Shown here: piece by piece, positions 19,689-25,306 of the stretch
Layout: each line of letters starts with the position of its first letter
Position numbering within the stretch: position 1 is the stretch's first letter
From: Gammaproteobacteria bacterium
GTDB taxonomy: Bacteria > Pseudomonadota > Gammaproteobacteria > S012-40
Assembly (NCBI GenBank): GCA_029883265.1
Contig: JAOUJM010000017.1
Span: forward strand, 1-41,059
Direction of reading: 5' to 3'
Length of the DNA stretch: 41,059 nucleotides
The notes under the pieces: generated by a model
What the model was told of the DNA's origin: nothing
The model's input: only the letters and a program-made list of their open reading frames with translations
The model's database searches: none
Translations under genes and position numbers: made by a program

Positions 19689-21455
19689 CTATTCGTTAAT
19701 ATTAACAAAAGCGTCTAATAATTCACGAGAAGGTTGCTGTGTAGACGTGGCATTTGCATTGGCGGTTGATTGTTGTGCCGTATGGCTGGTTTTTGTGCCA
19801 ACGGATTCGCGTCTGTCGGTGCTAACCAGTCGCTCGGCACGAGTAATCAAAGCTTCTTCTTTAGCTATTTTATCTTCCACCGACGATTTTTGATATGCAT
19901 CATCATTGAGCTTTAATCGCTCTACAAGATTTTTTGACGTTTGCCCGGAAATCGTTGTGACGGGAATTTCTTCTCCTAGTCCAGTGATGTTAGTGACACT
20001 ATCCATATTAGTTGATTCAGCCGTGTTTTCAGCCTCAACTAATTCGGCATCATGTGTCTTAGATAGCGATGGAGTTGGTTCAGTTATGGATATATTCGGT
20101 GTGTCAATCAGTTGCTCACGATTCAAATCAGATTGAAGCTCTGAATCCAATGACTCGGCTTTTGGCTTCGGCGCAGGCTGTAATAGGGTTTTTTTAACAT
20201 CAGGCTGAGATTGTTTCGTAGATACTTGCTCTTGGGCGAATTTTAGTAAACTAGCTTGTAATCCGATCACCTGGGCGTTGCGCTCTTCTAATTTGTCTTG
20301 CAAGGCCTGAATACGCGCCTTATACAATGCATCTTTGGCCAGCCATTCTTGTTTCTCTTTTTTCAAGTTTTCAATGCGTTTTCCTATGGCTAAAATCTGC
20401 CCATCACCGCTTTGATCCTGCGTGTGTATAATCGCATTTCGTAAAATATCAGTAACATTCGTGCTTTGAATGAGTTTTTCATTCAGTTGATTTGCTTTTG
20501 ACGCCAACATCTCTGACTGGACTTCTAATGGATTATCTCGAACATCATCATTAGAAAGCGTTCTGGCAATACGATACATGCGATATTCTGCATCTAGCAC
20601 TAATTGCTCAAGCGGCAATTTAACTTTGTGCTGTAAAGCAGCAACTTCTTTGGTAATGTAAAGCGCCCGTTTGGCAGAAAAAACCACTTCCTCACGCAAG
20701 GTATCAATATTGTAAGAACGACCAACATTCTTATCCATGAAGTCTTTTGCTTTACTGATAACCGCGTTTGCATCTGTATAAGCCGTAGGCGCTAATTGTT
20801 CGCCACCCCAACTTTTTACCCGGCGCATAATCTCATCAGCTTCATGTAAAACCCGATACTGCATGGCTCTACTTTCAAGTGCTTGCATATCTTTCACTAA
20901 ATTAGGGCGTTGCTCATCGGCTTTTCTAGCCTGACCAGTTTCGATTTGACGGATAACCCGCTGTAAACGATCCATCACACTTTCATATTCATTACTATAA
21001 ACATCGCTTGTTGATAATTCATCCAAGCTTTGCTTGATTTCCAATTCATCTTTTAACATGCTTTTGACTTGCTTAACGACACGATCACTGTTTTTCAAAA
21101 CTGCATTTGCTACCGCTACTTTTGTAATGCCTTTGTCTCGGGTCGCTTCTTCCGACAACAATTGACGTGCATCATTAATGGCTTTATTGGCAACATCCAC
21201 GTGTTCAGGCACAAGAAATCCACTCTCGGACTGTTGAGTTTGAGTCAATGCTTGCTCGGCTTGTTGCAATGCCGTATCGGCACCAAGATCATGAACTGAC
21301 TGAATATCTGCCTCAGTTGGCTCAATACTCTCAACCAATGAAACACTAGCGCAAGAAGTGAGCACTAACACACTTATTATGCATAGCATATTTCTGATTT
21401 GTTTTATGATATTTTTACATTCCATTTTGTATTCAAAGATCATCATGTTCTTCAT
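19689..21455 (-). CDS. Large coiled-coil lipoprotein, DUF4398-like, no OmpA domain
   Basis: A 588-residue predicted lipoprotein. The N-terminal hydrophobic segment ends in a lipobox, LVLTSC (Cys35 from the first ATG). In-frame ATGs at 21446, 21443 and 21425 would give a more ordinary signal length; none has a strong ribosome site. Residues about 50-330 are helical and Ala/Gln/Glu-rich (LQQAEQALTQTQQSES, VANKAINDARQLL) and resemble DUF4398 proteins, which usually continue into an OmpA peptidoglycan-binding domain. Here residues about 370-420 are a predicted coiled coil (KKEKQEWLAKDALYKARIQ), then a Ser/Thr/Glu-rich low-complexity tail runs to DAFVNINE without any OmpA domain. I do not recognise a specific family. 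It is divergent from the P-type ATPase-like gene and upstream of patatin. Confidence 0.75.
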   Translation of the reverse strand: MKNMMIFEYKMECKNIIKQIRNMLCIISVLVLTSCASVSLVESIEPTEADIQSVHDLGADTALQQAEQALTQTQQSESGFLVPEHVDVANKAINDARQLLSEEATRDKGITKVAVANAVLKNSDRVVKQVKSMLKDELEIKQSLDELSTSDVYSNEYESVMDRLQRVIRQIETGQARKADEQRPNLVKDMQALESRAMQYRVLHEADEIMRRVKSWGGEQLAPTAYTDANAVISKAKDFMDKNVGRSYNIDTLREEVVFSAKRALYITKEVAALQHKVKLPLEQLVLDAEYRMYRIARTLSNDDVRDNPLEVQSEMLASKANQLNEKLIQSTNVTDILRNAIIHTQDQSGDGQILAIGKRIENLKKEKQEWLAKDALYKARIQALQDKLEERNAQVIGLQASLLKFAQEQVSTKQSQPDVKKTLLQPAPKPKAESLDSELQSDLNREQLIDTPNISITEPTPSLSKTHDAELVEAENTAESTNMDSVTNITGLGEEIPVTTISGQTSKNLVERLKLNDDAYQKSSVEDKIAKEEALITRAERLVSTDRRESVGTKTSHTAQQSTANANATSTQQPSRELLDAFVNINE

Positions 21456-21809: not shown

Positions 21810-24191
21810 ATGCAAACTTATTCAATTGAAATTGTAAATTTAGTCAACACTCGCCAGATTCCATGCATTGTGGATGCAGTGACACAGCTTCCAGGTGTGC
21901 AAAATGTAAGCCTTGAATTCGACATTGGCGAATTATATTTTTCAGCCGACTCCAATGACGCTATTCGATTAGTCAAAAATAGAGTCTTACGACTCGGCTT
22001 CATATCGCGCAACCCCTTTGCTCAACGTCGCAGTGAAATCGAGATACCCGACCTTGCACAGATAACGGTTCAGCAAAAGTTGAAACAACTTTTGCATAAT
22101 ACCAATGGCGTGCAGCGTTTTCTATTCAAGCCTAGAAAAAAACTGCTCTTGGTATTTCATAACCCAGAACCCAACTGTGAAAATCTGCTATGTAAAATCA
22201 ATAATTCAGGCATTTACGCAAACCGTTATGTTGCCAATCAGCCTATCGAAAAACATATATTTCAGGATAGCGTTTTACTCATGAATGCGTTGATGGCATT
22301 CCTTGGCGTACTTATACAAGGATTCATACCGCAAGCAAATATTTTAGAGTTTAGTTTTTTCTTAGTGTCAATTATATTAAGCAGCATTCCACTCACACGC
22401 TATGGTCTTTATTTGCCTCTATTCACGCATCGTTTGAATACCTTTACCTTAACCATTTTCGTAATGCTATTTGCCATCAGTATTGACCAATGGTTTATTG
22501 CTGCCTTCATTGGTTTGTGCCACTCGATAACTCTAATGCTACAACGTAAGGCGCTTGATAAGACCAAACTACAACTTACAAAACTTAAGTCGTGCCTACC
22601 ATCAATCTCACGAATACTACTAACTGACAATAAGATTACAACCATTGCAACTCGGATGATAAAGAAGGGATACGTGGTTGCGGTAAAAAAAGGCGAATAC
22701 GTTCCTGTGGATGGCTCGCTGGTATCCGGTAATATCGTCTGCCAGGAAAAACCTCTAACCGGGATTTTTAAACAACAGCGCTATCAAAAGCAGCAAATGG
22801 TTTTTGCCGGGCAAAAAGTCGTCGAAGGTGAAGCATTCATAAGAACACAAAAACTACAATGCGAAACAATTGCAAGAAACGTCTTGAACAGCTTAGTTAA
22901 CTCTCAATACACCGAGCTCAAACACGAAACCAATATAAGCCTAATCGAATTTGGTGCTCGCGCACTCTTCATCATAAGTGCGATTTTGCCATTTGCACTG
23001 GCTTTTCCACCCGGAGGCACAATCGAGCCTCAATGGCTAAGTTTAGGACTGGCCTTGGTCATCATTTCACTGCCAATTTCATTAAGTGTTGCCACGCATA
23101 TTTCTTACTTGCAAGGCATTTACAAACTCGCCAATCGTGGCTTGCATATAAAAAACCTAGCATTATGGCCAGAGCTTAGTCGATTAAAACAATTAGTCAT
23201 AGATAAAACAAGTGTGCTTACCATCAATCAACCCGAAGCAATGGAAGTCATTTCCCTGGATGGCAAACCTATTAAAGTGATACTAAGTCTCGCCGCTAGT
23301 ATCGCCAAGCATCACAAGAATCCATCGTTCAAGGCTATCGTGCGACGTGCCGAGCAAAATGATATTGAGCTACATCAGAGCAAATTACTAGACAAGCATG
23401 AGCAATATATTAAAGCAGATATCAATCAACAAACATTACTCCTTGGTGACTACAAAACCATAAGAAAGAACCAACTTGACACACCCGAGCTTCAGAGAAA
23501 ACTAAATTTATGGGAAAACGAAGGCAGTAATGCGATTTTACTTGCAACCGAGGATCATGTGCTCGGGTTTATAACTATCCTCGACCCGGTCCGCACTAAA
23601 CTTGGTAGCGCAATAGAAAATCTTCACGCCAGTGGCATAGAGTCTGTCGCGGTTTTATCCGAGGATAATACTGGTCCTAGCGCAAGTTTTTATGAACAGT
23701 ATGGATTCGACAAAGTTTTTGGTGAACTCAACAATCAAGAAAAAATTGACTATATTCAACGTATCGACCCACAAAACCCATTTGCCGTAATCACCAATCG
23801 AGGCGACATTGCCAATCAGATAAATTGTCTGCGTATTTCAACAGACAACTTCAACCAGCCCAAGAACATATCCACAAGCGATGTATTCGTCATGGGCGAT
23901 GATGTGAATTATATTAGTGAATTACGCCAAGTCAGTTACGATACTGTACAAAGGACAAATAAACTCGGTGTTGTTTTTTGCACGAGCAAATTAGCGCTGG
24001 CTTGCTTGATTTATTTTGACCTGATAAGCCTATGGGGAATTGTCGCATTTGAGTTATTAAGTAGTTTTGTCTTGCTAAAATTTGCGTTACTTGGTGAATC
24101 CCGGAGCACGAAACCCAAACGCCCCCAGGTCAAAGTCACAAGAGATCAAATTATTAAGCCAGCCAGCCAGTTAAGGTCATTAATGCGATGA
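21810..24191 (+). CDS. Degenerate heavy-metal P-type ATPase homologue (probable pseudo-enzyme)
   Basis: A 793-residue protein with the P1B-ATPase layout but altered catalytic sites. Residues 1-65 form an HMA-like fold without CxxC (one Cys, C19); a second such unit spans about 82-140. Membrane helices lie near 153-172, 178-200, 210-245, 380-400 and 408-430, with a final pair near 718-760. The actuator keeps VPVDGSLVSG (298-307) but has TGIF (317-320) for TGES. The membrane motif is LPI (421-423) for CPC. The phosphorylation loop is DKTSVLT (465-471) for DKTGTLT, Asp kept. The HP site is NP (N505-P505 region, in HHKNPSFKAIV), TGDN is SEDN (617-620), and GDGxND has become NRGDIANQ (663-670); DPVR (592-595) is retained. 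The frame is intact, so this is not a decaying gene. Metal transport by the normal cycle seems unlikely; a regulatory, sensory or scaffold role is inference. Its 3' end overlaps ampE by 38 bases. Confidence 0.85.
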   Translation: MQTYSIEIVNLVNTRQIPCIVDAVTQLPGVQNVSLEFDIGELYFSADSNDAIRLVKNRVLRLGFISRNPFAQRRSEIEIPDLAQITVQQKLKQLLHNTNGVQRFLFKPRKKLLLVFHNPEPNCENLLCKINNSGIYANRYVANQPIEKHIFQDSVLLMNALMAFLGVLIQGFIPQANILEFSFFLVSIILSSIPLTRYGLYLPLFTHRLNTFTLTIFVMLFAISIDQWFIAAFIGLCHSITLMLQRKALDKTKLQLTKLKSCLPSISRILLTDNKITTIATRMIKKGYVVAVKKGEYVPVDGSLVSGNIVCQEKPLTGIFKQQRYQKQQMVFAGQKVVEGEAFIRTQKLQCETIARNVLNSLVNSQYTELKHETNISLIEFGARALFIISAILPFALAFPPGGTIEPQWLSLGLALVIISLPISLSVATHISYLQGIYKLANRGLHIKNLALWPELSRLKQLVIDKTSVLTINQPEAMEVISLDGKPIKVILSLAASIAKHHKNPSFKAIVRRAEQNDIELHQSKLLDKHEQYIKADINQQTLLLGDYKTIRKNQLDTPELQRKLNLWENEGSNAILLATEDHVLGFITILDPVRTKLGSAIENLHASGIESVAVLSEDNTGPSASFYEQYGFDKVFGELNNQEKIDYIQRIDPQNPFAVITNRGDIANQINCLRISTDNFNQPKNISTSDVFVMGDDVNYISELRQVSYDTVQRTNKLGVVFCTSKLALACLIYFDLISLWGIVAFELLSSFVLLKFALLGESRSTKPKRPQVKVTRDQIIKPASQLRSLMR

Positions 24192-25050
24192 GCCCTACCC
24201 ACAACGCTATGGTACGACGGATCAAATCGAGCGCCGCAGAAGCATTACAACGCTGTTTTGCATCATCATCTGACTTTAAACCTAATGAGCCCAAACCAGA
24301 TGATACGAGTAAACGCTCATTTTGATTGGGCCAACGCTCAACAGCATCGTCATCGGCATTTTTAAAACGGGCCATACCTTCAACAAAGTTTCCGGCAACC
24401 GCATAACTTAAAGCCAATAAACGTACCGGTATCCATTGCACATAAAACGCAAGTTGTTGCGAAGTTTCCAGTAGAGGATTCTCGTCATCATCAGCACTTT
24501 CCACTGGTTCTGCCAGGCGCTCGGCCAACAGTAAAATCAAACGATAAGTCAAAGCTGCTATTGGTCCCAATATGGAGAACCAAAAAATCACACCAAACAA
24601 ACTATTCACCGACTTTACTAACATCATTTCCGTGACGGCTTGATCCAAGTGAGTTTTTTCTTCCTCGCTAACCTCACGACCTAACAGTTTTTCTGCATTG
24701 GCAATCGCCTCTTCACTGGCAGATTCGCCTGGCTGGATGACTTCGCAGAAATCTTTAATCTGATGATAAAAACGTTGCGGACCCAAAGAAAACAACAGCA
24801 CCACCACACCAAATAAAAACCCGAACAAGTAAAACCAATCGTGTAACTCGTGATAAATAAAAGCGGCTACTAACGGGATAGCAATCACAATGGCAATAAC
24901 ACCTAGCCAGCCATTAAATGCACTTTCCTTGGAAATCTTAGTCCGCGACCAATCAACAAAACGCGCAAACCAATCGAATTGGCGATATTCATTAATGGCA
25001 TTAAAGAAACGTTCTGCTAATAAACTAAAAATTATGCTAATTAAAGTCAT
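24154..25050 (-). CDS. ampE: AmpE/CobD-like regulatory inner membrane protein
   Basis: A 298-residue membrane protein of the AmpE family, linked in enterobacteria to beta-lactamase induction and peptidoglycan recycling. It begins MTLISIIFSLLAERFF, a usual AmpE start, with AGGAAAGGAT just upstream; the frame is open further to 25128 but those residues do not fit. Hydrophobic segments lie near residues 47-65, 70-90, 155-180 and 278-297. The FWFSILGPIAALTYRL motif near 158 is shared by AmpE and CobD. The E. coli protein is 284 residues. No ampD is adjacent, which differs from the classic ampDE arrangement. The last 38 bases overlap the P-type ATPase-like gene tail to tail. Confidence 0.87.
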   Translation of the reverse strand: MTLISIIFSLLAERFFNAINEYRQFDWFARFVDWSRTKISKESAFNGWLGVIAIVIAIPLVAAFIYHELHDWFYLFGFLFGVVVLLFSLGPQRFYHQIKDFCEVIQPGESASEEAIANAEKLLGREVSEEEKTHLDQAVTEMMLVKSVNSLFGVIFWFSILGPIAALTYRLILLLAERLAEPVESADDDENPLLETSQQLAFYVQWIPVRLLALSYAVAGNFVEGMARFKNADDDAVERWPNQNERLLVSSGLGSLGLKSDDDAKQRCNASAALDLIRRTIALWVGLIALMTLTGWLA

Positions 25051-25075
25051 ATATCCTTTCCTGGCCAAATCGACC

Positions 25076-25081
25076 ATTATA
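25076..25081 (-). promoter_or_regulatory. Candidate -10 element for ampE
   Basis: A perfect TATAAT on the minus strand at 25076-25081 lies 26 bases before the ampE ATG. No convincing -35 is seen 16-18 bases upstream. Confidence 0.4.
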
Positions 25082-25306
25082 CAAAGTGCACACAAATTAG
25101 ATCTTCTACGAAGCAACCTAGTGTGCAAATAGTAACTCTATACATAAAGGCTTTGGCCTTAAGAATCAATAGGTTTTCTGGCAATAACTGCGCTAATTCA
25201 CTTTAAATTTAAAAAGAATTCGCTAAGTCGATGTATTCACGAGCTTAAGCGGTACTTTGAAAATAGTCTGACAAGCTAAATAAGTACTACTCGATTCACA
25301 AAACAG

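Follow-up and report, generated by a model that had tools for sequence, protein, structure and literature searches.

The locus and its protein

In the window, that is, the whole stretch of 41,059 nucleotides analysed here, a gene of 793 codons (21810..24191, plus strand) encodes a protein of 793 aa with the marks of a pseudo-P1B-ATPase, and it has orthologues in three further genera. The ORF list and the translation gave zero internal stops, as the original prediction had stated. The gene lies between a divergent gene for a putative lipoprotein of 588 aa (19689..21455, minus strand) and a gene for an AmpE-like, CobD/CbiB-related membrane protein (24154..25128, minus strand), both conserved in position, so that the ATPase gene is antisense to both neighbors; according to the sequence and the ORF coordinates, its tail overlaps the ampE-like gene at the 3' end of the latter (24154..24191). 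The AmpE-like protein matches the AmpE and CobD/CbiB families, under the NCBIfam equivalog cut-offs, while the lipoprotein has no Pfam or NCBIfam match and is present in 10 of the 13 genomes sampled from the order, which makes it an unnamed conserved family. A promoter scan of the divergent region stayed at chance level.

The layout comprises two HMA-like domains, eight membrane helices, and the A, P, and N domains. The original prediction of an HMA-like N-terminus holds as to homology (hhalign 99%, E 5e-18, for the N-terminal 150 residues against the tandem HMA domains of the intact pumps L087–L090), but the domains number two, in tandem, and neither has kept its metal motif. HMA-like domain 1 (aa 1–70; 21810..22019) has the secondary structure beta-alpha-beta-beta-alpha-beta in the AlphaFold model and carries NLVNTRQI where the metal motif GMDCPDCA would be, and HMA-like domain 2 (aa 71–140; 22020..22229) has lost GMDCAEE. 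The model then places helices MA and MB at aa 147–200 (22248..22409) and M1 and M2 at aa 210–260 (22437..22589). The actuator domain (aa 261–366; 22590..22907), delimited by Pfam (PF00122, aa 264–443) and per-region conservation, retains its VPVDG loop; the N domain (aa 480–583; 23247..23558), located by the motif table and the model, is missing the nucleotide motifs HP and GxG. Helices M5 and M6 follow at aa 700–761 (23907..24092) in the model and in the profile alignment to ZntA (4umv).

By homology and by its A/P/N and membrane fold the protein belongs to the P-type ATPase superfamily. Pfam recognized E1-E2_ATPase (PF00122; E 1e-20) and HAD hydrolase (PF00702; E 3e-8), both over cut-off, and the heavy-metal ATPase model TIGR01525 matched at E 1.4e-57; with such E-values the resemblance is not due to chance. 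The TIGR01525 score of 196 bits is far from the cut-off of 346, however, and the protein scores under all curated P1B cut-offs of NCBIfam, a heavy-metal P-type ATPase by family that falls short of every curated subclass. The AlphaFold2 model (pLDDT 83.2, pTM 0.78; low confidence only in the linker 144–147 and residues 764–793) retains the P-type fold, with two ferredoxin-like domains, MA, MB, M1–M6, and the A, P, and N domains, although its input alignment contained active pumps, which biases it to the canonical fold, and its exact conformation means little. Foldseek matches were P-type ATPases (top E 2e-35), and the best global structural match was the P1B pump 7r0g (TM 0.70/0.83, rmsd 3.7).

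Motif loss in the pseudo-ATPase clade

The order, one of uncultured Gammaproteobacteria, was sampled as one family with 13 genomes, and the gene was present in four of them, representing four genera that are only distantly related. The search for relatives identified the orthologues in G007 (26% identity), G011 (28% over the matched part), and G003 (24%). The four proteins are 22–26% identical, 769–802 aa long, uninterrupted, and degenerate in every case, and they form one clade in the maximum-likelihood tree (support 1.0), descended from a common ancestor. A contig scan with the single protein returned no relative, and an alignment-based scan returned two orthologues, the rest being ordinary P-type ATPases. 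Searches of the class and phylum samples gave no additional clade member, and their top matches were intact double-HMA pumps. The actuator-domain scores separate the two groups, at 149–217 bits for the 41 canonical P-type ATPases in the 13 genomes and 52–79 for the four.

All of the substitutions listed in the original prediction are present at the motifs named. The motif table of 109 relatives shows TGIF (aa 317–320; 22758..22769) in place of the dephosphorylation motif TGES, with TGIF, TGAD, SGSS, or a degenerate sequence at this position in the four. LPI (aa 421–423; 23070..23078) replaces the CPC metal site in M4, as the M3–M4 alignment also indicates; the region reads SLPIS, AGTTS, AGSVF, and SGPAA in the clade, while Cys is found at column 423 in 101 of the other 105 relatives. 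DKTSVLT (aa 465–471; 23202..23222) stands for DKTGTLT and keeps Asp465, whereas the orthologues have EKTGTLT, DKNGVVT, and DKQGVIT in the alignment, the first of these, in G007, placing Glu at the phosphorylated-Asp position. NP (aa 504–505) replaces the HP of the P1B N domain in the window copy, the other three orthologues also have no HP, and both HP and GxG are missing in most clade members. SEDN (aa 617–620; 23658..23669) replaces TGDN, with D619 and N620 retained but Gly absent in all four. NRGDIANQ (aa 663–670; 23796..23819) takes the place of GDGxND, a motif found in none of the four; the claim of its loss is right for the full motif, but GDIANQ aligns over GDGVND, so that G665, D666 (the first Asp), and N669 may remain in the window copy, a set absent from the orthologues. 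The TGES Glu and the Mg site of GDGxND are gone throughout the clade, as are Cys423, Gly618 (of TGDN), Pro642, Gly667, and Asp670, and the M2 Glu (aa 245) is gone in two of the four.

What is kept is also informative. VPVDG (aa 298–302), Asp465, and DPVR (aa 592–595; 23583..23594) were confirmed in the window copy, with the P-domain Asp592 retained in all four, and the residues of the VxxGExxPxDG loop together with K466, T471, D592, D619, and K645, part of the P-domain pocket, are unchanged across the four and across nearly all pumps. Among P1B-2 hallmarks, CPC in M4, the HMA Cys motifs of both domains, and the N-domain HP are lacking, but the pairing of Lys in M5 with an acidic residue in M6 survives as Lys727 (23988..23990), equivalent to ZntA K693, and, conservatively, Glu748 (24051..24053), equivalent to ZntA D714, both invariant in the four; Lys with Asp occurs in 26 of the 105 other relatives. 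Of the 46 columns with conservation of at least 90% among active relatives, 45–46 agree in intact pumps and 22 in the window protein.

Nearly all of the other 105 relatives retain TGE, CPC or a motif close to it, DKTGT, HP or H, GxG, TGD, and GDGxND. Joint motif loss was seen only in the four and, less fully, in L034 (1396–3333; G022:C58:9782–11719), a second degenerate P1B-like ORF of 646 aa with an intact frame from another order, which has DLVGT(LT), SGER, TPVC, TEES, and SGIDNAQ where the canonical motifs would stand. L034 adjoins the clade in the tree (0.987), but we rejected it as a member: unlike the pseudo-ATPase it has no HMA domains, it lies at another locus, its best matches are other P1B ATPases at ~27–30% identity, and its position fits long-branch attraction or independent loss. 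It is probably an independent case. In L035, L042, and L043, P-type ATPases of Candidatus Parabeggiatoa (Thiotrichaceae; G044), DKTGT, TGE, and GDGxND are intact and the M4 CPC is absent (NGHIAQ, YSAPSN, and TAHFGS); in the first search for relatives no genome gave more matches than G044, with ten.

Ancestry, selection, and history of the locus

When the profile of the four was compared with solved structures, its best match was 4umv, a zinc-transporting ATPase (E 8e-63). The K693 (M5) and D714 (M6) pair of ZntA is a P1B-2 hallmark, serving as built-in counter-ion and metal ligand (PMC8880997). By this best match, the double HMA, and the M5 Lys/M6 acid pair, the pseudo-ATPase is a former P1B-2 (ZntA-type) pump. 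It has in common with ZntA/CadA (PDB 4umv/4umw) the double HMA seen also in L087–L090, eight helices, the A, P, and N domains, the M5 Lys, and the M6 acid; it differs in being without the HMA Cys motifs, CPC, and TGES and in its degenerate DKTGT, HP, TGDN, and GDGxND.

The genes have evolved under purifying selection. Pairwise dN among the four is 0.89–1.08 and dS is infinite or >4; since dS is saturated with dN near 1, dN/dS is at most ~0.25, an upper bound only, and neutral evolution is rejected. In simulated neutral drift from the window gene, the mean number of stops was 20 at 0.25 substitutions per site, ~30 at 0.5, and 38 at 1.0, and the minimum at 0.25 was 8 in 300 runs, against an observed 0 in four genes. 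G+C by codon position varies as in neighbor genes. The original prediction, that the gene reflects selection for a non-transport role and not decay, is upheld, with three orthologues from other genera degenerate, free of stops, and below ~0.25 in dN/dS. As to whether the same substitutions recur, all four are degenerate, but the exact replacements differ from member to member, the phosphorylation site being an example. The one clade, wholly degenerate, is under purifying selection and appears to be selectively maintained as a pseudoenzyme. Decay of the clade as a whole is refuted, while a loss of function recent to the window genome alone would be visible only with close relatives.

Constraint has moved from the transport helices to the cytosolic head. 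In active P1B-2 pumps, M3–M4 is the best conserved region (0.61), whereas in the degenerate clade it is among the worst (0.18), the A, P, and N domains being the best (0.27–0.29), with M5–M6 at 0.25. A protein with a non-transport role would be expected to show constraint shifted off the metal path in this way.

The locus is conserved. The arrangement of the window is identical in G003, G007, and, as far as the contig end, G011. The non-carriers G005, G008, and G001 have no ATPase at this point, their ampE-like and lipoprotein genes adjoining directly and reading in one direction, and G002, also a non-carrier, has the lipoprotein with no ampE match adjoining; no normal-motif orthologue was found at this locus, the non-carriers examined having an empty site or no ampE by the lipoprotein. 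Because these four genomes without the pseudo-ATPase keep the lipoprotein, three of them with ampE adjoining, the gene is dispensable. In the flanking-gene tree the carriers G000, G007, G003, and G011 are interspersed with the non-carriers G002, G005, G001, and G008 (one deep split, support 65), and G005 and G011, a non-carrier and a carrier, belong to one genus. Given this scatter, the gene is probably old and was lost several times. Most simply, the gene was gained once at this site and then lost several times; that it reached the site independently on four occasions is unlikely.

The order ampD-ampE-lipoprotein-rssA is apparent in a non-carrier and also in G003, where the ATPase gene is interposed, ampD having been named by eye from the sequence; the ampD-like gene adjoins the ampE-like gene in G003 but not in the window. 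The C-terminal overlap with the ampE-like gene occurs also in G003 and G007 and couples both C-termini. RSLMR, a C-terminal match between the window and G007 proteins, was considered as a new functional motif and rejected, since it is located in this overlap and probably mirrors, in antisense, the C-terminal residues conserved in the AmpE-like protein.

Role of the protein and its relation to known systems

The pseudo-ATPase is very probably not a metal pump, and the motif losses suggest that all pump activity is gone. An inherited, selectively maintained pseudo-ATPase that acts as an inner-membrane regulator or scaffold is the reading that we consider best, a probable one though by no means secure. 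A ZntA-like double-HMA P1B-2 pump gene would have settled between ampE and the lipoprotein gene in the ancestor of the order, the ancestral pump would then have lost metal binding and catalysis, and purifying selection since then would have kept a non-pumping membrane protein. The most likely location of this protein is the inner membrane, with an ordinary P-type architecture; its cytosolic A/P/N head, on which constraint is now strongest, would serve as a docking or regulatory platform, not as an engine. We lean towards a regulator or scaffold role, whereas a partnership with one of the neighbors, the AmpE-like protein or the lipoprotein, is a rather doubtful speculation from gene position. 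The flanking genes hint at the cell envelope, again by position. Several observations do not sit easily with our reading: the gene is dispensable, it evolves faster than its neighbors (22–26% vs. 29–66% identity), the structural model leans to the canonical fold, and K466, T471, D592, D619, and K645 persist in all four, with D465 and D666 besides in the window copy. With these surviving residues the protein may still bind a nucleotide or phosphate, or even form a weak phosphoenzyme. A variant that we entertain tentatively is that the head is a regulatory or ligand-sensing module with this remnant phosphate pocket and that the membrane part keeps only the Lys-Glu pair, the whole being a sensor or gated path in the envelope.

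It is unlikely that the protein is an ATP-independent ion path, in which a cation or proton would pass through the M5 Lys/M6 Glu pair, gated by the dead head. The invariance of Lys727 and Glu748, the equivalents of the P1B-2 counter-ion pair (PMC8880997), favors it, and the persistence of a deep M6 acid without the CPC site needs a reason; against this, CPC is gone in all four and the M2 Glu in two, M3–M4 is among the least conserved regions, and a Lys-Glu salt bridge may be merely structural. Slightly less likely still is a prozyme-type role, in which the dead protein would pair with and regulate a P-type ATPase that is active in its cell. Regulation of a live paralogue by a dead one is a known principle (PMC5201418), and the genome itself has two canonical P1B ATPases, the CopA-like L001 and the CcoI-like L002, but these nearest paralogues belong to other P1B subclasses, the genome yielded no active paralogue of the double-HMA ZntA type, and non-carriers keep P-type pumps without the pseudo-ATPase. 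The original prediction had also allowed for a changed cycle, that is, a working ATP-driven pump with unorthodox motifs; this we judge very unlikely. D465, K466, D592, D619, and K645 do remain in the window copy, and D666 may, but the TGES Glu, the CPC Cys, the TGDN Gly, the second GDGxND Asp, and both HMA motifs are lost clade-wide, HP and GxG are lost in most members, the phosphorylated Asp is Glu in G007, and the replacements differ among orthologues, unlike a new shared mechanism. Most improbable of all is that the gene is decaying or arose as an artefact when this draft genome was assembled, a reading that dispensability, fast evolution, and loss in several relatives might suggest, but that is contradicted by four assemblies with one locus and no stops or frameshifts despite saturated synonymous divergence, where even 0.25 neutral substitutions per site would leave ~20 stops.

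Searches of open-access papers brought up no P-type pseudo-ATPase from bacteria. The closest counterpart in print is TMEM94 of humans, a membrane protein that resembles P-type ATPases but has no TGES and for which ATPase activity was not detected in the study concerned (PMC12134183), although its status is disputed, a 2026 paper calling ERMA the ER Mg2+ ATPase (PMC13322241). TMEM94 is eukaryotic and has ten helices, whereas the present family is bacterial, P1B-2-derived, and has lost more motifs. With the trypanosome AdoMetDC prozyme (PMC5201418) the pseudo-ATPase may share the principle of catalysis lost, fold kept, and a regulatory role, but that is an unrelated enzyme.

What is new here is a branch of P1B-2 ATPases made up of pseudoenzymes, so far recorded in four draft genomes from a single order. 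P-type ATPases are a textbook case of strongly conserved catalysis. A bacterial lineage that dropped the reaction cycle and vertically kept the 800-residue machine would be a natural experiment on what the fold does without pumping, and the panel of four degenerate orthologues, empty sites, and intact double-HMA cousins could serve to tell the residues needed for folding from those needed for transport.
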